From: Synechococcus sp. PCC 7335
GTDB lineage: Bacteria > Cyanobacteriota > Cyanobacteriia > Phormidesmidales > Phormidesmidaceae
Reading direction: 5' to 3'
Assembly (NCBI RefSeq): GCF_000155595.1
Contig: NZ_DS989904.1
Coordinates: forward strand, 4,048,786-4,112,785
Length of the DNA stretch: 64,000 bases
A program made the position numbers and the translations under genes. The notes beneath the pieces are model-generated. The model was given only the letters and a program-made list of their open reading frames with translations. It did not search any database and was not told the origin of the DNA. Shown here in pieces: positions 40,867-51,951 of the stretch. Each line of letters begins with the position of its first letter. Position 1 is the stretch's first letter.

Positions 40867-43155
40867 ATGTCAGCTATTTCTAAGGTGGCCCCTTCGCTGA
40901 GCATAAATTCTCTGTATTGGCAGGGGATGATAGATGTTAATCCGCTGACAGCCTCTAGCCAAACTCAGCTAGCAAAGGTCTTGGCACGCTTGAACTCTCA
41001 TCCAGCAGCGGGCTGCATCTTGGCTGTCTATCGGCGTAAGGTTGTAGGGATTGCTACTCGTCAAGATCTGATGAGTGCTTTAGCACAAAATCCTAAGTGG
41101 GCTAGCATGCGGCTTGCTCAAATAGTGACTCGTCCGGTAATTACTGTAAAGCGCTCGGCAATCACTCATGTCACGCACGTCATAGATTTGTTAGAACAGC
41201 ATCAAATAAGCTATCTGCCCGTGGTCGACGACAATGACTGTTTACTAGGTCTGATCGACCAAACTCGCCTGCTAAGAGCATTACAAAATCAGTTCACCCA
41301 TCACTCACCCGAACAGTCAGGACGAGCTCAAATTTTTGCAGATATTACACTCAAAATTCGCCAGTCTTTGCAGCTCAAAGACATTTTGCAAACGACCGTT
41401 GACGAGATTCAGCATCTGTTGAATGCGGATCGGGTATTGATCTATCAAGTACTGCCTGATGGCACTGGGAAAGCCGTAAGTGAAGCGGTACAAGCACCTT
41501 ATCCTTCTATTATAGAAATTCCTTTTCCTGAAGAGGTGTTTCCAGAAGACTACCAGGCGCTCTATGCTGAAGGACGCATACGCGCTGTCACTGATGTGCG
41601 TAGCCCAAAGGCAAACATTGCCGAGTGCCTAGTTGAGTTTCTTGCCCAATGGGATGTTCGATCAAAGCTGATTGTTCCGATTGTTCGCCCGATTAGCCCT
41701 GCAATTAGTCCTTCTACCAACAGTGCTGAAGATACCGTGCCTGTGCATAAGCATCTTTGGGGACTGTTGATTGCTCACCAGTGCCGCCAGCCTCGCCAGT
41801 GGTCAGACCTTGAGCTAGATCTGATGCAGCAGCTTGCCGGGCAAATTAGCCTAGCACTTTCCCAAGGTCAGCTGATGGAGTATTTAGAAGAGCGAGTTAA
41901 GTTGCGTACTACCGAGCTGACTCAAGCGAACAATGCTTTGCAGCAAGAAATTCAAGAGCGCAAGCAGATAGGCAAAGCGCTGCGTCAAAGTGAAGCTCAG
42001 CTTCGATTAATCACTAACAATTTGCCAGTGCTCATTGCTTATATAGATTGTCACCAACGCTATCAGTTCAACAATTTGAGCTATGAGCAGTGGTTAGGAT
42101 TTTCACCAGTGGATATGGCTGGAAAAACGATTCAACAAGTAATAGGCGCTGCTCACTATCGGAGCATTCAACCTCATATTGAGACAGTACTCTCCGGTCA
42201 ACAGGTAACGTATGAGAGTGAACTAACTTTTCGAGATGGACGCGATCGCTCGGTAAGCGTTACCTACATTCCTCACATAGAAACCGCTAAGGAACCAAAA
42301 TCTTCACAAGCATCTGATTCAGATGAGCACAAACAGAATAATCGGCGAGATTCAAGACAGGTTAAAGGCTTTTTCGCTCTGACAACTGATATTAGCGATC
42401 GCAAAGCGATTGAGCGGATGAAAGATGAATTTATTGCCGTCGTCAGTCACGAGCTACGTACACCACTGACCTCTATTCATACTTCTCTTAAATTGCTGGC
42501 AACAGGGCTACTTGGCCAACTACTTGCAGAAGGTCAGGAAATGCTAACTGTTGCCGATGAGAATACCGATCGGCTGGTGCGCCTAGTCAATAACGTTCTC
42601 GATCTGCAGCGTATAGAATCTGGTGAAGTCACGCTTGATGCGCAGGAATGTGAGGCGGCTGAACTGTTAGATGAAGCCGTTGAGAGTGTGCTGACCATCG
42701 CGCAGCAGCATAATATTAGAATAGAGGCCCACGCAGAGTCGCTTTCTATCTGGGCCGATCCAGACTACATTGTGCGGGCGCTGACAAATCTGCTTGGCAA
42801 CGCGATTAAATTCTCTCCTGCAGGCGAGGTCGTTTGCCTCACTGTCAAAGCTGTTAGTTCGTCTTTAGAAAAACCTAGCACAGATCAAGAAATGGCCTTG
42901 TTTTGCGTTCAAGATAACGGACAAGGCATTCCCCACAACAAACTCGACAGCATCTTTGAGCGTTTTCAGCAGGTCGATTCTTCTGACTCTCGTAAAAAAG
43001 GAGGGACAGGATTAGGCTTGACTATCTGTCGAAAAATCGTAGAACAGCATGGAGGTAAAATCTGGGCAGAGAGTCAACTAGGTAAAGGCAGCCGCTTTTC
43101 CTTTACCGTACCACTTGCGCCTCTTTTGAAGGAATCGTCCGCTCCAGTCTCCTAG
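40867..43155 (+). CDS. rcaE: RcaE-like photoreceptor histidine kinase (CBS-GAF-PAS-HisKA-HATPase)
   Basis: Domains of this 762-residue protein: a CBS pair (about 18-143), a phytochrome/cyanobacteriochrome-type GAF (155-340), a coiled coil, PAS (378-500), HisKA with His528 in [10 protein letters not shown], and HATPase with DNGQGIP and GGTGLGLTI. Cys254 of the GAF ([12 protein letters not shown]) lies where the bilin-binding Cys sits, but the usual next His is Leu. There is no PHY domain, so it is not a canonical phytochrome or RfpA. With the RcaF- and RcaC-like genes next to it, it is the likely light-colour sensor. Bilin type and colour range cannot be read from sequence. The ATG has GGAG 11 bp upstream. 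Confidence 0.75.
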
Positions 43156-43184
43156 AACTGTTCCTAGAACTATCTTGTAGAACT

Positions 43185-43568
43185 ATGCACTCACCAAAAC
43201 GTATCCTCATTGTCGATGACGAGGAATCTATTCAAAAAGTAGTGAAACTCAGCTTAAAAATTGAGGCTAGTTGGGAGGGAGTGACAGCCTCTTCTGGTGA
43301 GGAGGGCATTCGTCAGGCGCAAAGCCTTCAGCCGGATGCTATTTTGCTCGATGTGATGATGCCAGATATGGACGGAATCGCTACCTTTGCTGCCCTAGAG
43401 AGAAACCCGAAAACGCGAACGATTCCAGTTATTTTACTAACGGCAAAAACACAGGCATTCGAGAAGCGACTTTTTCAAGAAATTGGTGTTGCTGGTGTGA
43501 TTACAAAGCCCTTTGAACCCCTATCTTTGGCCAGCAAGATCGCACAGCTACTGCACTGGACTCTTTAG
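43185..43568 (+). CDS. rcaF: RcaF-like single-domain response regulator
   Basis: This 127-residue receiver domain stands alone: acidic pair Asp11-Asp12, phospho-acceptor Asp56 (AILLDVMMPD), Thr in LLTAKT and Lys in ITKPFEP. In chromatic acclimation type 3, RcaF is the small receiver thought to relay phosphate from the kinase to the HPt domain of RcaC. It starts 29 bp after the kinase stop, so the two are cotranscribed. RcaC follows after about 295 bp and probably has its own promoter. Confidence 0.8.
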   Translation: MHSPKRILIVDDEESIQKVVKLSLKIEASWEGVTASSGEEGIRQAQSLQPDAILLDVMMPDMDGIATFAALERNPKTRTIPVILLTAKTQAFEKRLFQEIGVAGVITKPFEPLSLASKIAQLLHWTL

Positions 43569-43863
43569 CACCAATGTCTGTATAGGTGAACAGGCCTGTA
43601 GATGAACAGCCAAAAGGATACATTGATAGGGGAGCGAATAGGTGAAACGAACAGAAGTATTGAATGAACGACTTCAAATAGCGTAGATAAAACAAGAATA
43701 CATTCTCACTTACACATCTCACTGTCTCAGTTAACTTGACTGTCGTCGCTTAAGGCGTCACCTGTGGTTTTCCAAGAATATACATCGTTCTCACTGACTT
43801 GCCAGATACAATGGATATAAGTGCATAGCAAAACCAGATTGACAGTGCCATTACAAAGGTTAT

Positions 43864-45774
43864 ATGAGAGTTCTATTAGTAGATGATGACAATGCACTGG
43901 CCTCGCTGCTCACTTCTCAGCTAGCAGCGCACAACTATATTGTTGATCACGTTGCGGATGGGGAAACGGGATGGGCCTATGCCTCTACTTTTGACTATGA
44001 TCTAGTTGTTTTAGATTGGATGTTGCCTCAGTTGAGCGGGGTTCATTTATGTCAGCGCCTACGTAGGCAAGGCTGTGGCGTGCCAATTCTTCTATTAACC
44101 GTAAAGAATGAGCAAAGAAATAAAATAGAAGGCTTAGAGGCAGGTGCAGACGATTACGTCGTTAAACCGTTTGATATGGACGAGCTACTTGCGAGAATTC
44201 GAGTACTGCTAAGACGAACGCCTCACGAAACGGAACCAGTTTTAATCTGGGGCAATTTACAGCTCGATCCTATTAGCACTCAGGTGCATTATTCTGGGCA
44301 GCTGGTCACACTGACGGCCAAAGAGTATTCTCTTTTAGAACTTTTTTTACGCTCTCCCCATCAGGTATACAGTGCAACGGTTTTGCTAGGTAAGCTGTGG
44401 TCCTCTCAAGAATTTCCTAGTGAAGCAACAGTGCGATCGCATCTTCGGCGACTACGGCAAAAGCTCAGTCAAGCAGGAGCTGCGCCCGATTTAATCGAAA
44501 CAGTCCATGGGCTAGGCTATCGGCTCAAATCATTGGTGATTGATGCAGCGCCCACAGCGGCCAATACCGATGTTCCTGATCAGCGCGCAGCACGCTACCT
44601 AGAGGGCCTGACTCAGGCCTGGAAAGCCCATAAGGGAGAAAGTTTGGCTCGCTGGCAAACACTCCTAGAGATTTCTCAGACGCTACAGATGAAAGAACTT
44701 AGCGAGCAGCAGCGAACTCAGGCAATGCAGATTGCTCACAGCCTAGCAGGCACATTGGGTACTTTTGGCTTGATGGAAGGATATCGACTCTCTCTACAGG
44801 TAGAGCAACTATTGCTACGCTCAGGCGATCGCTCTAGAGTGAGTTTTTCAACTGCTGAAGCTGCTCAGTTTCATACGATTGTGACTACGCTTGGACATAC
44901 GCTAGACGAAGCGCCTCGGCTAGTTTGTCCTGTCGACAATCCACCAAATGCGCCTAAGGCAATGATGATAGATGTCAACGGCATGTCTTATGTTCAGCAG
45001 CTGATGGCGATGGGTATTGCTCAGGGAATAGAGATGAGCGTAATTGCATCTGTAGAAGCAGCGTCACACTCACTGTGGCTTGATCGGCCGCTGAAAACAG
45101 CATCAGAATTTCTTACGTCACTGCCTGATATGGTTCTGGTAAATCTGGTAGCAGGGGAAACGAACCCAGTGCTAGATGAGCCAATTTTACAGAAGCTGTT
45201 GTACTTTATCCAACAGGTTTCAGAACGTTGGCCGCAGATCAAGATAACAGTAATTACGCCTCAGGCCGACTTTGGCAATCGGTTAGACTTGGTCCGTCGC
45301 GGCGGTGTGCTGATATTAGAGTATCCTGTTGTCCCTGCAAAGGTTCTAGAGATAATGTGCCGAATGCTGGAACTAAACGCTCGCCCGAGTAAGATCATGA
45401 TTGTAGATGACGATGCTCACTATCTTAAGCAGGTAGTTCAACTGCTGCATCCATGGAACTTTGAAATCACGCCTTTAACCAACCCACAGCGGTTTTGGAC
45501 ACTATTCAATCAGGTGCTGCCTGATTTAGTCGTGTTCGATGTTGAGATGCCCCAAATTAATGGATTTGAGCTTGCTAGAGTGTTGCGTAGCCATACTAAG
45601 TGGCAGCATCTACCGATTGTGTTTCTAAGTGTGCATGGCGATGCTGCCAAACAAGAACAGGCCTTTGCCATAGGCGCAGACGACTACATTACTAAACCTG
45701 TTCATGGAAAGGCCTTCGCTACTAGACTGTTAAACCGCCTTAACCAAACAGCCGATATTCGTCGCCCAGCTTAA
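43864..45774 (+). CDS. rcaC: RcaC-type response regulator (REC - OmpR/PhoB DNA-binding - HPt - REC)
   Basis: Domain order in this 636-residue protein: receiver 1 (1-116, phospho-Asp51 in VVLDWMLPQ), OmpR/PhoB winged helix (about 126-222, LTAKEYSLLELFLRS and EATVRSHLRRLRQKL), and HPt (about 235-345, His in IAHSLAGTLGTFG). A degenerate receiver-like segment (about 370-510) and receiver 2 (about 515-632, VVFDVEMPQ and YITKP) follow. This unusual four-part order is the mark of RcaC, the master regulator of type-3 chromatic acclimation, which binds L boxes at cpc2 and pcyA promoters. Two L-box-like sites follow this gene. Confidence 0.9.
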   Translation: MRVLLVDDDNALASLLTSQLAAHNYIVDHVADGETGWAYASTFDYDLVVLDWMLPQLSGVHLCQRLRRQGCGVPILLLTVKNEQRNKIEGLEAGADDYVVKPFDMDELLARIRVLLRRTPHETEPVLIWGNLQLDPISTQVHYSGQLVTLTAKEYSLLELFLRSPHQVYSATVLLGKLWSSQEFPSEATVRSHLRRLRQKLSQAGAAPDLIETVHGLGYRLKSLVIDAAPTAANTDVPDQRAARYLEGLTQAWKAHKGESLARWQTLLEISQTLQMKELSEQQRTQAMQIAHSLAGTLGTFGLMEGYRLSLQVEQLLLRSGDRSRVSFSTAEAAQFHTIVTTLGHTLDEAPRLVCPVDNPPNAPKAMMIDVNGMSYVQQLMAMGIAQGIEMSVIASVEAASHSLWLDRPLKTASEFLTSLPDMVLVNLVAGETNPVLDEPILQKLLYFIQQVSERWPQIKITVITPQADFGNRLDLVRRGGVLILEYPVVPAKVLEIMCRMLELNARPSKIMIVDDDAHYLKQVVQLLHPWNFEITPLTNPQRFWTLFNQVLPDLVVFDVEMPQINGFELARVLRSHTKWQHLPIVFLSVHGDAAKQEQAFAIGADDYITKPVHGKAFATRLLNRLNQTADIRRPA

Positions 45775-45793
45775 TCCTTACGTCTAACTGGGT

Positions 45794-45811
45794 TTGCACA
45801 AGGTCTGCACA
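45794..45811 (+). promoter_or_regulatory. L-box-like RcaC binding site upstream of pcyA
   Basis: TTGCACA-AGGT-CTGCACA: two heptamers differing at one base, exactly 4 bp apart, 209 bp before the pcyA ATG. A direct repeat of TTGCACA-like heptamers with a 4-bp spacer is the described RcaC L box. Confidence 0.75.
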
Positions 45812-45821
45812 GCAGGTATAG

Positions 45822-45847
45822 CAAAGTAAGCATGCATGCTTACTTTG
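45822..45847. terminator. 26-bp perfect palindrome after rcaC, terminator or regulatory hairpin
   Basis: Arms CAAAGTAAGCATG and CATGCTTACTTTG abut with no spacer. It lies 48 bp after the rcaC stop and 11 bp downstream of the L box. It is followed by TCTTGATATG, so the T-run is weak. It may end the rcaC transcript, or sit at the start of the pcyA transcript. Confidence 0.55.
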
Positions 45848-46019
45848 TCTTGATATGCATTCCCTAGTGCCGGACAACGACGCGGGGTCTCACCGCTGCT
45901 AGCTATGTTGCTTGTTGTTTCATTGGGTTTTTGGCTAGTGAGAGTGTTCTAAGCAACTCGACAGATGCCGTATAGGCCAAGGTAAGAAGCAGGAAAATCG
46001 CCAAGGATCTTGAAAAGTC

Positions 46020-46772
46020 ATGGTTCAGCTCACGCATAAGCCTATTTTGAAACAGCACCCTGCAATTTCTCAACTAGCTACGACGATCAAAAATATTTGG
46101 CACAAGCAATTGATGGTGTTTCCCTACGAGGTACCAACCGAATTGGGCTATGTCGAAGGTAGCTTAGAAGGGGAACAGCTAGTTATCCAAAACCTTTGCT
46201 ATCAGACTCTACAGTTTCGCAAGCTTCACTTAGAACTCGCTAAGGTCGGCAGCAATCTTGATATCTTGCATTGCGTCATGTTTCCCCATCTCTGCTTTGA
46301 TTTGCCCATTTTCGGGGTAGATATTGTGGTTGCCAGAGGCCACATTACTGCTGCTATTGTGGATTTGTCGCCGGTTTCGCCAGATGGCACCCTCCCTGTT
46401 AGCTACCGGCAAGCGCTGGAAGAAATCCCTGTCCCTCAATTCTCCAGTCCCAGAGCGCTACCAGAATGGGGAAGCATCTTCTCAAATCACTGCTTGTTTG
46501 TGCGTATAGAGACTCCTCAAGAAGCAATGAGCTTCTTGAATCAGGTGACACAGTACTTAGTGATACACTGCCGACTCGCCTGCGAATCTACTAAAGTTGA
46601 AGATACAGCGCGAGCCTCCATATGGGCAGGACAAAAGCACTACTGCCAACAGCAACAGAAAAATGATAAGACCCGCCGAATTCTAGAGCGAGCTTTTGAT
46701 AAGAAGTGGGCTCAGCGCTATTTGGAGACTATGCTATTCGATTGCGCTAGTCCAGACACCTTTTCTCCTTAA
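46020..46772 (+). CDS. pcyA: phycocyanobilin:ferredoxin oxidoreductase
   Basis: PcyA reduces biliverdin IXalpha to phycocyanobilin in two ferredoxin-dependent steps, supplying the chromophore of phycocyanin and of bilin photoreceptors. The 250-residue protein has the family blocks LGYVEGSLEGEQL, FRKLHLELAKVG, LDILHCVMFP and LPIFGVDIVVARG; these contain the conserved catalytic Glu, His and Asp. Its place between rcaC and cpcBA, behind an L box, points to light-colour control. It may be a second, regulated copy; the rest of the genome is not visible. Confidence 0.95.
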   Translation: MVQLTHKPILKQHPAISQLATTIKNIWHKQLMVFPYEVPTELGYVEGSLEGEQLVIQNLCYQTLQFRKLHLELAKVGSNLDILHCVMFPHLCFDLPIFGVDIVVARGHITAAIVDLSPVSPDGTLPVSYRQALEEIPVPQFSSPRALPEWGSIFSNHCLFVRIETPQEAMSFLNQVTQYLVIHCRLACESTKVEDTARASIWAGQKHYCQQQQKNDKTRRILERAFDKKWAQRYLETMLFDCASPDTFSP

Positions 46773-46989
46773 TCTGAAAGCTAACCACCTCATGGCAAAA
46801 CTACAGGTGGCGATTGTGTGCCAGTGACTTCGAAATTGCTGCGCTTGTGGTCGTGAATTTTGAAGATGAGACATCCTGACAGATGTAACCAATTGTAACT
46901 TTAATGAGAACAATCGTAATGTTTAGAAAGACCTGAAAAGCTTTTTGTAGAAGAGGTTTAGAGCTTTGTAACCGGATAGATACAAACTT

Positions 46990-47007
46990 ATGCACAATAT
47001 CTGCACA
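46990..47007 (+). promoter_or_regulatory. L-box-like RcaC binding site upstream of cpcB
   Basis: ATGCACA-ATAT-CTGCACA: heptamer direct repeat with a 4-bp spacer, on the same strand as cpcB and 420 bp before its ATG. Together with the site at 45794 it shares TGCACA-N5-TGCACA. Confidence 0.7.
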
Positions 47008-47376
47008 AGCAAATTGATTAAATCAAAGCATTGGTTCGAGCTACCTAAGTCTGTCGGTAAACCCGTCTGGAAATATTCTTTTTGGTCTTTTTTGTTTTTG
47101 CGATGTGTGTAATTTCTGTAGCGGATTGATTACTACTTTGGGGGCCAAGTCCTTCACAGAAGGTTTTATTCATAAACATTCTGTTAGGGATAGTCTCTAA
47201 GCGGTAAGCTATCTGCTCTTAGCTGTTTGGGAAAACATTTATTCACAACGCAACAGCATCTGTAGAGAGGACTGTGAAAAGAGATTGTGGTCGAGCTATG
47301 TCGATTGAGCAAGCAGTCAAGGAAAGCTTAGGTTTTCCTGGTTTATCTAATGTTTGCTTCAACGAGGTCTAACTGT

Positions 47377-47398
47377 CAGATATCTGTTAGATATCTGT
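47377..47398. repeat. tandem AGATATCTGT repeat in the cpcB leader
   Basis: AGATATCTGT at 47378-47387 and 47389-47398 (11-bp period); the first copy is part of the palindrome CAGATATCTG. It lies just upstream of the cpcB ribosome binding site (AGGAGAG) and could affect translation or mRNA stability. Confidence 0.5.
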
Positions 47399-47427
47399 GT
47401 TTTTGAGAAGTAGGAGAGCAATTCCAC

Positions 47428-47946
47428 ATGTACGATGTTTTTACGAAAGTGATTTCCCAGGCTGATGCGCGAGGCGAATACATTGGCGAGGACAAACTTG
47501 ATGCTCTAAACAAGCTGGTGTCAGAGGGCAACAAACGGATTGACACTGTCAACCGCATCACTAGCAACTCCTCTGAGATTGTGTCGAGTGCAGCCCGTTC
47601 ACTGTTTGCCGAACAGCCGCAGCTAATCGCCCCAGGTGGCAATGCCTATACCTCTCGCCGCATGGCTGCTTGTCTGCGAGATATGGAAATTATTTTGCGC
47701 TATGTCACCTACGCCATGTTTACCGGAGACGGTAGTGTCTTGGACGACCGTTGCTTGAACGGTCTGCGTGAAACCTATACCGCGCTGGGCGTCCCGGGCG
47801 GCTCTGTGGCTGCTGGGGTCGACAAAATGAAGGATACGGCGATCGCAATTGCCAATAATCGTGAGGGCATCACTCAAGGCGACTGTAGCTCTTTGATGGC
47901 CGAACTAGGTGGCTATTTCGATAAAGCTGCCGCCGCTGTCGGATAA
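47428..47946 (+). CDS. cpcB: phycocyanin beta subunit
   Basis: This 172-residue globin-fold antenna protein has chromophore cysteines Cys82 ([17 protein letters not shown]) and Cys153 (GDCSSL), and the methylated Asn72 in [10 protein letters not shown]. The block identity with phycocyanin ([13 protein letters not shown]) excludes phycoerythrin, phycoerythrocyanin and allophycocyanin beta chains. It is the first gene of cpcB-cpcA-linker-linker-cpcD and binds two phycocyanobilins. AGGAGAG lies 12 bp before the ATG. The L box and the neighbouring rca genes suggest an inducible copy like cpcB2 of type-3 chromatic adapters. Confidence 0.97.
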
Positions 47947-48017
47947 AATTTCCCGTCTCCGCTAATTACTCGTCTAAATCGTCCATTTTCATACATTTTT
48001 CCAAGAGAGATTCCAAC

Positions 48018-48506
48018 ATGAAAACTCCCATGACTGAAGCGGTCGCAGCCGCTGATTCTCAAGGCCGTTTCCTCAGCAGCTCAGAACTACAGGTCGCCTT
48101 TGGCCGTTTTCGTCAGGCTCAGGCCGGACTATCTGCCGCTCAATCGTTGACTAAAAACGCTGATAGCTTGGTTAATGGCGCAGCTCAAGCCGTTTATCAA
48201 AAGTTTCCATACACCACCCAGATGCAGGGCAGCAACTTTGCTTCTTCATCTACTGGAAAAGAGAAGTGCTCAAGAGATATTGGTTACTACCTGCGGATGG
48301 TGACGTACTGTCTGATTGCAGGCGGTACTGGCCCAATGGATGAGTATCTTATCTCTGGCATTCAAGAGATCAACACAACGTTTGATCTTTCTCCTAGCTG
48401 GTATGTGGAGGCGCTTAAGCACATTAAGGCTAACCACGGTCTTAGTGGTGATGAAGCAGCTGAAGCAAACTCCTACTTTGACTATGCTATCAATTCGCTA
48501 AGCTAA
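48018..48506 (+). CDS. cpcA: phycocyanin alpha subunit
   Basis: The 162-residue alpha chain pairs with CpcB in trimers and hexamers of phycobilisome rods. The single chromophore Cys lies in [22 protein letters not shown], and [19 protein letters not shown] at the N-terminus is standard. The gap to cpcB is 71 bp, as in other cpc operons. A long hairpin follows it before the linker genes. Confidence 0.97.
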
Positions 48507-48564
48507 CAGCTCACTGCAACAATTTGCTGAGCTGATACCTTCCTGAATGAATCAGCATAGCTGA

Positions 48565-48665
48565 TTGCTAAGCCCTCGTCTCAGGGTTTCTCTCGAAAGA
48601 ACCTAACGCTAGGAAACCTGAAAACAAAGGTCTTCAGTAGGAAAATGAGCACGAGGGCTTAGCAA
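48565..48665 (+). promoter_or_regulatory. long-stem RNA structure between cpcA and the linker genes
   Basis: Perfect 15-bp arms TTGCTAAGCCCTCGT (48565-48579) and its complement (48651-48665) are extended by 4 bp across a C bulge; the loop itself holds the smaller inverted pair CAGGGTTTC / GGAAACCTG. No T-run follows. It probably acts as a partial terminator or mRNA-stability barrier giving more cpcBA than linker mRNA, as known for other phycobiliprotein operons. Confidence 0.65.
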
Positions 48666-48762
48666 AACAATCAAATGCGAGTCCTTATCCTCCACGAAAG
48701 ACTAGGGATATCAGCATTTTCAGGCATGTTCTAGGCCAAGACGACAAGGAGATGTGATCAAC

Positions 48763-49581
48763 ATGACGAGCGAAACTTCTGCAAGATTATTAGGATTCGA
48801 GCCCTTTGTACAATTCACCCCGGTAGAGCTGCGCCACAATGCTTCTGAATCCGACATTCAAGGGATAATTTGGGCGACTTATCGACAGGTGTTAGGCAAC
48901 GACCATGTGATGAGCGCAGAACGATTGATCAGTAGCGAGTCTTTGCTTAGACAAGGTCATATCAGAGTCTGTGATTTCGTTCGGACGCTGGCGCTATCTG
49001 AACTTTACAAGGAAAAATTCTTTTATAGCACGCCTAATGTACGTTTCATTGAGCTGAACTTCAAGCATCTATTAGGCCGTGCACCTTACGATGAATCAGA
49101 GATCACTGAGCATGTCAATCTCTATATCCAACAGGGCTATGAAGCAGAAATCAATAGCTATATAGATTCGGCTGAATACCAAGATAATTTTGGTGAACAG
49201 ATCGTGCCTTACTACCGAGGCTTTGCAACCCAAAGAGGACAAAAAACGGTCGGATTTGGCCGGATCTTTCAGCTCTATCGGGGAGTAGCTAGTAGCGATC
49301 GCGCCCGTGTCAACCACAAAAAAGGCACTCTAACCACAGAATTAGCTCGCAACTCAGCTAGCCCAGTTCGAGCGGCTAACACGAGTAAAGAACTACAAGG
49401 GGTGACTGGAGGTAATCGTGAGCAGCTATATCGCATTCGAGTGTCACAATCGGCCAGCCAGCGACGACCTCAGGTCCGCTTAGGTATGCAGGAATACGTT
49501 GTCTCCTATGAGCTGCTTTCCTCGACGCTGCAGCGACTCAACCAAAGAGGGTGTCGAATTATGGATGTTTCACCAGCATAG
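48763..49581 (+). CDS. cpcC: phycobilisome rod linker polypeptide (CpcC/CpcH type)
   Basis: This 272-residue protein has a PBS-linker domain (about 15-180: [13 protein letters not shown]-like region, [29 protein letters not shown]) and a C-terminal CpcD-like domain (about 215-272, YRIRVSQSA ... [22 protein letters not shown]). It organises phycocyanin hexamers in rods. In the inducible cpc2 operon of chromatic adapters the equivalent genes are called cpcH and cpcI. I choose the ATG at 48763 because AAGGAG lies 11 bp upstream; a GTG at 48754 is too close to it. Confidence 0.92.
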
Positions 49582-49669
49582 CCTGCTGTAAGTGCCCTCC
49601 CAAAGTAGCCTCTCGATCACGATTGCCCCGTTAAAAATTTCAATATCACATTACTAGGAGAAACGATCA

Positions 49670-50545
49670 GTGTCCATTACAGCCGCCGCTAACAGGCTAG
49701 GAACCGTCCCCTTTACCGACCAACAGCCCGTAGAAATGCGGCCAAAGGCTTCTTCAGACGATGCCCAAGCTGTTATCTATGCCGCTTATCGGCAAGTCTT
49801 AGGGAATGACTATTTAATGCGATCAGAGCGTTTATCTGCATTAGAGTCTCTAGTCACCAATGGGACACTGAGCGTTAGAGATTTTGTTCGAGCGATCGCT
49901 AAGTCCGAGCTGTATAAAACAAAGTTTTTGTACCCTAATTTTCAAACCCGCGTGATTGAGCTTAATCTCAAGCATCTTCTAGGTCGTGCGCCCTACGACG
50001 AATCCGAAGTGATTGAACATCTCGATCGCTATCAGAATGAAGGATTTGAGGCTGATATTGACTCCTATATTGACTCAGAGGAGTACGAAACCAACTTTGG
50101 CGATAGCATTGTGCCTTACTGTCGCGGCTTTAGCACTCAGAATGGCCAGAAGATAGCGGGTTTTACGCGCATGTTCAGCCTATATCGGGGCTATGCCAAT
50201 AGCGATCGCGCCCAAATCGCTGGTGCACCCTCCCGCTTAGCTCAAGAGCTGGCTCAAAATAGCATTTCAGCCGTGGTTCCTCCCTCGTCTAGCAGTGATA
50301 ACAATGGTTGGGCCTATCGCCGTGCCAAAAACTCTACCAACAATAATCGGGCCTTTGCCAGACCTGGTTCTACCACAGGTCGCGACAGCTTGTATCGGAT
50401 CGAGGTAGCAGGACGACGGCGTCCAGGCTATCCCAGCATTCGACGCAGCAACCGAGTGCTGATTGTTTCTTACGAGGCACTTAATGAGACCCTCAAGAGA
50501 ATAAGCCAAAGTGGTGGTCGTATTGCCAATATCACTAAAGCGTGA
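49670..50545 (+). CDS. cpcC: phycobilisome rod linker polypeptide (CpcC/CpcI type)
   Basis: This 291-residue paralogue of the preceding gene has the same two domains: PBS linker (about 10-185, [30 protein letters not shown]) and CpcD-like (about 235-291, YRIEVAGRR ... [21 protein letters not shown]). A longer Ser/Asn-rich hinge at about 200-235 separates them. The start is a GTG with AGGAGA 9 bp upstream. Two rod linkers imply rods of at least three hexamers when CpcD and CpcL are counted. Confidence 0.92.
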
Positions 50546-50615
50546 GCGTTCAAAAGCTTTTCTCATATAGCAGTTTCTCAATCTATCCTCTTTATTCCAT
50601 TACTAGGCACTTATC

Positions 50616-50927
50616 ATGTTAGGACAGAGCGCTACCAGTACCGCCTCTAGCGTAGATAATCGAATTTTCGTTTATGAAGTGACGGGCCTAAGCCAAAACG
50701 AGCTGACTGCTCGCCAACGCTCACCCATACGCAGCAGTCAAAACCAATTTGTTCAGGTACCTTTCCATCGTATGAATCAGGAAATGCGACGGATTACGAT
50801 GCTAGGCGGAGAGATTGTTAGGATTTTGCCGCTAGGGGACAGTACAAAGGCTAGTCCTACTCCCTCAGAGTCTGAGAGTCCAAATGAAACCCGTAGTGAT
50901 GAAGCTACGAAGAGTTCTGCCAATTAG
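50616..50927 (+). CDS. cpcD: phycobilisome small rod-capping linker
   Basis: This 103-residue protein has a CpcD domain in residues 14-75 (RIFVYEVTGLSQNE ... FVQVPFHRMNQEMRRITMLGGEIVRI) that caps the distal end of the phycocyanin rod. A Ser/Thr/Glu-rich tail of about 28 residues extends beyond the usual length of about 80. Last gene before a very strong terminator, so it ends the cpcBA-linker operon. Confidence 0.93.
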   Translation: MLGQSATSTASSVDNRIFVYEVTGLSQNELTARQRSPIRSSQNQFVQVPFHRMNQEMRRITMLGGEIVRILPLGDSTKASPTPSESESPNETRSDEATKSSAN

Positions 50928-50996
50928 TGAGCGTTTAGGATTCTCTCCTACTATATACCCACCATAGATAATACCCATCATAGATAATGAGCTAAT

Positions 50997-51041
50997 AAAA
51001 AATCTATGTCTGCTATAGGCTATAGCAGACATAGATTTTTT
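50997..51041. terminator. strong bidirectional terminator between cpcD and cpcL
   Basis: A perfect 21-bp stem with a GGC loop (arms 50997-51017 and 51021-51041), beginning with AAAAAA and ending with TTTTTT. It should stop transcription after cpcD, making cpcL a separate unit. Confidence 0.9.
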
Positions 51042-51153
51042 AAATGAGCAGATTCTCTTGAAGAGAGAAACGGATTTCCTCATGGTAATTGTTTCTTTTT
51101 CTTAAACTTCCGTAGTCTCTGGTCACGAAACTTTTATCCTTATGAATTAAGAT

Positions 51154-51175
51154 AGATAAGTATAAGTACTTATCT
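51154..51175. promoter_or_regulatory. inverted repeat in the cpcL upstream region
   Basis: Perfect 9-bp arms AGATAAGTA and TACTTATCT with a TAAG spacer, 32 bp before the cpcL start. It may be an operator or a 5'-leader hairpin that sets cpcL translation. Confidence 0.45.
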
Positions 51176-51207
51176 GTTGAAAGAGAGTGTTTATAAGGAG
51201 AATGTCT

Positions 51208-51951
51208 GTGTCTTTGCCGTTGCTAAGCTATCCTGTTTCTAGTCAGAATCAGAGAGTGCCAGGGTTTGAAGTGCCTGGTGATGAACAACCTTATCAGTAT
51301 TCAACTGATCGGCTGCTCTCAGGTCAGGAACTAGACAACCTAATTTTGGCTGCCTACCGTCGTATCTTCAACGAACAGCAGGTATTAGCCAGTACCCGAG
51401 AGCGTTCTCTTGAATCTCAGCTTGCGGGTAAACAAATTACGGTTAGAGATTTTATCAAGGGATTATTACTCTCTGATACATTCCGTCGCCGGAATTACGA
51501 GTGCAACAATAACTATCGCTTTGTGCAAATGTGCATTCAGCGGGTGCTAGGTCGCGATGTGTACGACAATCGCGAAAAGTTAGCTTGGTCTACGGTGCTG
51601 GCAACAAAGGGATTAGAAGGCTTTGTTACAGAACTATTAGAAAGCGATGAATACTTAGATAACTTCGGGCTAGACACCGTACCTTATCAACGACGGCGTA
51701 TACTCGCTCAGCATACAACTGGTGAGCTTCCTTTCGAGCGGATGCCCCGCTATGGCCAAGATTATCTAGCTCAACTAGAGGCGTTGGGCAATGACTTCTC
51801 AAGCGATCGCCAGGTTGTAGAAGCACCCTATCTGCGTCCATCGGCAACTGTTCTACAGATTGCCGGCTGGTTGACAAAAGCAGGTGGGGTGGCGCTAGCA
51901 GCTCTCGTGCTGGCGGTTGTACTTTCTTGGTTTGGCTGGATCAGTCTCTAA
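51208..51951 (+). CDS. cpcL: rod linker with C-terminal membrane helix, CpcL (CpcG2) type
   Basis: This 247-residue protein has the start SLPLLSYPVSSQNQRVPGFEV and a PBS-linker domain (about 15-185) of the CpcG family. The last 30 residues (GVALAALVLAVVLSWFGW) form a hydrophobic helix. CpcG1 proteins, which join rods to the allophycocyanin core, lack this helix; CpcL has it and anchors core-less phycocyanin rods to the thylakoid, feeding photosystem I. CpcG-family proteins begin M-x-LPLL, which places the start at the GTG 51208, 6 bp after AAGGAGA. Own promoter likely, because a strong terminator lies upstream. Confidence 0.92.
   Translation: MSLPLLSYPVSSQNQRVPGFEVPGDEQPYQYSTDRLLSGQELDNLILAAYRRIFNEQQVLASTRERSLESQLAGKQITVRDFIKGLLLSDTFRRRNYECNNNYRFVQMCIQRVLGRDVYDNREKLAWSTVLATKGLEGFVTELLESDEYLDNFGLDTVPYQRRRILAQHTTGELPFERMPRYGQDYLAQLEALGNDFSSDRQVVEAPYLRPSATVLQIAGWLTKAGGVALAALVLAVVLSWFGWISL

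Follow-up and report, generated by a model that had tools for sequence, protein, structure and literature searches.

Does the rod-membrane linker gene cpcL that lies directly behind a light-colour-controlled phycocyanin operon in Synechococcus sp. PCC 7335 belong to that switch? The question is raised by a 64,000-nucleotide stretch of this genome, called the window. At 40867-51951 it carries ten plus-strand genes in the order rcaE, rcaF, rcaC, pcyA, cpcB, cpcA, two rod linkers, cpcD and cpcL (Table 1). Reading frames together with domain and family matches confirmed this order and strand as the first-pass annotation had given them, and PcyA, CpcB, CpcA and CpcD all score above their NCBIfam cut-offs.

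Table 1 Features of the island and its putative control sites (window positions unless a contig is given)
Feature	Position	Strand	Basis or remark
rcaE, RcaE-type green/red cyanobacteriochrome kinase	40867..43155	+	domains, PDB match, residue columns
rcaF, single receiver	43185..43568	+	domain match
rcaC: receiver, OmpR-type DNA-binding (winged helix), Hpt, receiver	43864..45774	+	domain match
L-box 5' of pcyA, TTGCACA-AGGT-CTGCACA	45794..45811	+	motif search; same 18 letters in G217 (L048)
pcyA, phycocyanobilin:ferredoxin oxidoreductase	46020..46772	+	NF002760, 333 bits against a cut-off of 206
L-box 5' of cpcB, ATGCACA-ATAT-CTGCACA	46990..47007	+	motif search; same 18 letters in G217 (L048)
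cpcB, genome's second copy	47428..47946	+	TIGR01339 above cut-off
cpcA, genome's second copy	48018..48506	+	TIGR01338 above cut-off
Rod linker, PF00427 + CpcD domain	48754..49581	+	domain match
Rod linker, PF00427 + CpcD domain	49670..50545	+	domain match
cpcD, rod-capping linker; taken as final gene of the L-box operon	50616..50927	+	NF058509 above cut-off
22-bp perfect hairpin between cpcD and cpcL, stem with runs of A and T; likely terminator	50996..51042	+	folding energy
9-bp perfect inverted repeat AGATAAGTA-TAAG-TACTTATCT upstream of cpcL	51154..51175		32 bases before likely start
cpcL, rod-membrane linker, probably its own unit	51187..51951, start more likely GTG 51208	+	PF00427 only, hydrophobic C-terminus
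Reversed L-box, ~165 bases 5' of pebA	G000:C1:483438-483454	opposite orientation	exact motif search

The sensor kinase has the domain order CBS-GAF-PAS-HisKA-HATPase, and alignment places its phospho-acceptor histidine at position 528. When its GAF part was compared with solved structures, the best match was 8k9o, labelled only 'histidine kinase' (E = 2.4e-65), followed by RcaE itself (7ckv, E = 6.5e-57); these two entries have identical letters over the stretch displayed. Identity to RcaE is 58% across a 102-residue block. E223, C254, L255 and K267 align with the RcaE glutamate, cysteine, leucine and lysine that underlie green/red switching. The cysteine and these residues are common to 19 of 21 RcaE-like proteins of relatives (the exceptions are L060, a fragment, and L072) and are also present in 11 of 11 CcaS proteins, so they are not by themselves specific to RcaE. 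Domains and structure matches, with an RcaF receiver and an RcaC of receiver, DNA-binding, Hpt and receiver parts alongside, nevertheless bear out the original call of an Rca-type sensor with two regulators. Elsewhere in the genome, at L079:9322-16408 (G000:C2), a second RcaC-like regulator (36%) adjoins a 1186-residue RcaE-similar kinase, with a receiver nearby.

We searched all 5.97 Mb of the genome for the exact L-box pattern, TGCACA-N5-TGCACA, using the pattern read backwards as a control. Three exact sites emerged (before pcyA, before cpcB and, reversed, at pebAB) versus none for the control; at no more than 1 mismatch in 12, there were 16 sites versus 4. A looser scan of the window, allowing 3 mismatches in 14, gave 9 matches against a chance mean of 6.86, which is about what chance yields; the two best, with 1 and 2 mismatches, are the only ones to be relied on. 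The exact sites agree with targets already published. In red light, according to PMC8256508, citing Li et al. 2008, RcaC of PCC 7335 activates pcyA and cpc2 by binding L-boxes, and an L-box of opposite orientation serves it to repress pebAB. Because the scheme and its L-box targets are in print for this strain, the island is known and a reading of it as new is ruled out. The first-pass annotation was thus correct in placing pcyA and cpcBA under an Rca-type pathway, a point already made in that paper.

The remaining pigment genes of the genome further define the setting. Its far-red ApcE2 shows no difference over 783 residues from chain K of PDB 8UHE, a complex from Synechococcus sp. PCC 7335 (PMC10810746), and its two ApcE, one CpcG and one CpcL equal the counts given for the strain in Table 1 of Wang and Chen 2022. 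Outside the island lie cpeB, cpeA, pebA and pebB, all above NCBIfam cut-offs, as well as another cpcBA (its cpcB above the NCBIfam cut-off) and a far-red cluster. Three further rod linkers at 489795-492772, to which no model gives a name, were taken for phycoerythrin linkers because they lie near pebAB. PCC 7335 is described as a phycoerythrin strain performing type-III acclimation, with a red/green change of phycocyanin and phycoerythrin reported from white versus red light (PMC4390838). It had been noted at first that phycoerythrin genes were lacking; that holds for the island and fails for the genome, where cpeBA and pebAB make the absence local only, and the role to be expected of the island is ordinary type-3 acclimation. 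At G000:C1:2789864-2792517, separate from the far-red cluster, a pair of allophycocyanin-like genes precedes a chlorophyll-binding antenna gene of IsiA/Pcb type; this set resembles the so-called low-light cluster.

What then of cpcL? The protein has PF00427, no CpcD domain and a C-terminal hydrophobic stretch with a Kyte-Doolittle value of 2.27 over 19 residues, versus 0.82 in the genome's CpcG (the linker at 1451554, which has no such C-terminal helix). This stretch identifies it as CpcL, as had been proposed. Its start is more likely the internal GTG, which yields MSLPLLSYP and matches relatives. The gene lies on the same strand as cpcD and begins ~260 bases behind it, a gap similar in size to the ~250 bases that separate cpcA from the first rod linker inside the operon. 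Between cpcD and cpcL, however, stands the hairpin of Table 1, with a folding energy of -31.4 kcal/mol against a mean of -12.4 and a lowest value of -17.0 among 30 shuffles; a consensus scan that wants T after the stem did not list it. Of 13 relatives, 5 (L049, L056, L064, L065, L074) have a hairpin behind cpcD that is more stable than every one of 30 shuffles and the other 8 do not, so a terminator at this place is no fixed feature of the operon.

Candidate regulators of cpcL were sought in its surroundings. Control by RcaC through a weak L-box was rejected, as none lies near cpcL at up to 3 mismatches in 14, and none of the 16 genome-wide sites at up to 1 in 12 is at cpcL; with a terminator predicted after cpcD, cpcL has no L-box of its own and probably lies outside the L-box operon. 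Control by CcaR was likewise rejected, the window scan having found no G-box near cpcL at up to 1 mismatch. The sole exact G-box in the window (54257) is inside alaS. With 1 mismatch allowed the count is 13, below the 21.2 expected by chance; one of these sites lies before pcyA (45995, minus strand). Searching the whole genome with CcaR of G103 revealed no orthologue: the best match is 59% identical, as is a paralogue within G103 itself, versus 91% in G383, which has CcaSR. No sigma-70-like site turned up upstream of cpcL in a consensus scan, nor on the plus strand upstream of pcyA or cpcB. We also discarded the idea of an inserted repeat carrying cpcL, as in a genome search the 280 bases upstream match only their own inverted repeat.

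We then asked how common the arrangement is. An RcaC search of 388 genomes of the class returned matches at E <= 1e-60 in 283, many of them surely paralogues, and we read the surroundings of the best 32 non-own matches, 31 of which contain an rcaC reading frame (it is cut in L061). A cpc operon follows rcaC on the same strand in 18 of these 31 loci. All but two of the 18 (L066 and L070) have an L-box with at most 1 mismatch in 12, a motif expected by chance 0.11 times per 20 kb (mononucleotide shuffles, ten loci). The arrangement that had been thought possibly undescribed is thus common as regards rca and cpc, and its targets in PCC 7335 are in print (PMC8256508). Membrane-type CpcL is absent from all 17 of the cpc-operon loci with at least 1 kb readable beyond the last detected cpc gene, among which L054 ends inside its operon and L066 has only weak cpcB-like matches (46-47%). 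One locus, L050, has a second cpcBA set that ends in CpcG. In G236, G353 and G347, rcaE has an exact L-box on its upstream side (L056:1190, L057:2868, L058:1940), placed before a rod-linker set that in G347 includes a second cpcBA; next to it is a divergent CpcG from a clade of its own (5 rows, 100/100), and a CpcG set under Rca control is possible there.

The nearest relative, G217, has alaS directly after cpcD, 98 bases on, with no cpcL between. Among relatives, the cpcD-alaS place itself is visible only in this genome: the sequence of G071 ends 1.2 kb after cpcD, with neither cpcL nor alaS within that stretch, so that a gain of cpcL in PCC 7335 and a loss in G217 cannot surely be told apart. 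Across the seven genomes of the genus, a linker with a hydrophobic end occurs in the genome of the window, G103 and G383, the latter two having CcaSR with theirs; the remaining linkers found, including those of G217, G071, G046 and G287, have no hydrophobic end. The window CpcL groups with 10 lone CpcL genes (95/84), mostly of Leptolyngbya-like relatives and apart from CcaSR-linked CpcL, although the inner forks of this set are weaker (88/67).

Surveying from the side of cpcL, we found no full rcaC within up to 10 kb in the best 80 of 458 CpcL loci, many of which are shortened by contig ends and from which the genome of the window may have been left out. Many of these 80 lie near pebAB or cpcBA. 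This result does not fit easily with Wang and Chen 2022, who state that CA3 strains have most of their cpcL genes in RcaE-modulated operons or near bilin-synthesis genes; the samples differ. A cpcL near rcaC does have a parallel in the Rca/Cca hybrid locus L068:787-7244 (G270:C52), with rcaC-rcaF beside ccaR, cpcL and ccaS, but there cpcL comes with its own CcaSR. Another CpcL setting appears in L145, L188, L194 and L222, where the gene is directly behind three chlorophyll-binding IsiA/Pcb-like genes and forms its own clade (100/100).

Because of the hairpin, the missing L-box, the cpcD-alaS junction of G217, the lack of CpcL in the 17 loci and the grouping with lone CpcL genes, cpcL most probably forms a unit of its own beside the island, with its own promoter. 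The same hairpin, missing L-box, cpcL-free junction and kinship leave the light-colour switch for a photosystem I antenna, as first proposed, unsupported. The island is the known CA3 system of PCC 7335, and we consider it probable that the cpcL next to it is separate from it. In red light, following the published scheme, represented here by its genes and L-boxes, RcaE would phosphorylate RcaC through RcaF; phosphorylated RcaC would bind the two L-boxes, turning on both pcyA and cpcBA-CC-D, the second phycocyanin operon, and would hold pebAB down through the reversed L-box. Green light would undo this state. The neighbouring cpcL, whose type stands alone in relatives, would be transcribed from its own promoter. 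Provided that it is made in both lights, a change in the surrounding phycobiliproteins would be enough to recolour CpcL rods, with cpcL itself unswitched. No rod linkers other than the two of the island operon were found beside phycocyanin genes in the genome, and we infer from this that constant CpcL rods would be phycoerythrin-rich in green and phycocyanin-rich in red light.

A form of this explanation in which cpcL is regulated instead of constant, answering from its own promoter to another signal (far-red light, nitrogen or light intensity), is conceivable but less probable. Such control might act through the perfect 9-bp inverted repeat upstream of the likely start, whose exact copies occur only at this same place in the loci compared, and the genome does contain a far-red cluster. 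Against it, the repeat was not found upstream of six lone CpcL relatives, whose start codons are uncertain; these six stretches yielded no shared operator, and L150 has a different inverted repeat. We regard as unlikely that cpcL is instead read through from the L-box operon, which would raise it in red light and place CpcL rods on photosystem I with a sign opposite to that of CcaS/CcaR. The shared strand, the short distance from cpcD and the lack of a recognizable CcaR orthologue favour this, as does the suggestion by Wang and Chen 2022 of shared control for CA3 strains generally, and the hairpin may leak toward cpcL; the strength of that hairpin, the absence of a nearby L-box and the failure to find CpcL behind cpc genes in the relatives read all speak against it. 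Slightly more doubtful still is the evolutionary version, in which the L-box operon acquired cpcL at its downstream end and red-light read-through now expresses it, giving red-induced photosystem I rods. A new photosystem I antenna switch in a strain without phycoerythrin, the first-pass annotation taken in full, draws on gene order only and is exceedingly improbable, being refuted as to phycoerythrin by cpeB, cpeA, pebA and pebB and by the standing of PCC 7335 as a known phycoerythrin-making type-3 acclimator (PMC4390838).

With the island accounted for as type-3 acclimation and cpcL a likely separate unit, interest narrows to a small but testable question: whether a cpcL beside an Rca operon follows light colour at all, and with which sign. 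The same question of RcaE-controlled cpcL has been raised for type-3 strains generally (Wang and Chen 2022), and the literature surveyed (titles and abstract starts, outside the main specialist papers) contains no report of PCC 7335 cpcL under different light colours. Red-induced CpcL rods, if real, would run opposite to the CpcL systems under CcaSR control that have been described to date.

The locus can be compared with several known systems. It resembles the CcaS/CcaR-cpcL system (CA1) in having a green/red cyanobacteriochrome system beside cpcL and the same green/red residues in the sensor. In CcaS/CcaR systems CpcL is made in green light; here there is no CcaR orthologue to be seen and no CcaR box near cpcL, and the CpcL is from another branch. 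Otsu and colleagues are said to have described in 2022 a hybrid in Pleurocapsa PCC 7319 in which Rca governs phycocyanin in red light, as here, and cpcL is under CcaSR, a regulator whose CcaR has no orthologue seen in PCC 7335. The lone CpcL proteins of Vasconcelosia, Leptolyngbya PCC 7375, Adonisia turfae and Leptothoe are the closest among the best 80 of 458 (63-67%), with no rcaC frame in the flanks examined, unlike here. For Rca type-3 acclimation, described in Fremyella diplosiphon and PCC 7335, the introduction of PMC8256508 makes no mention of the cpcL that adjoins the island, and the strain and the three L-box targets are the same as those found here.
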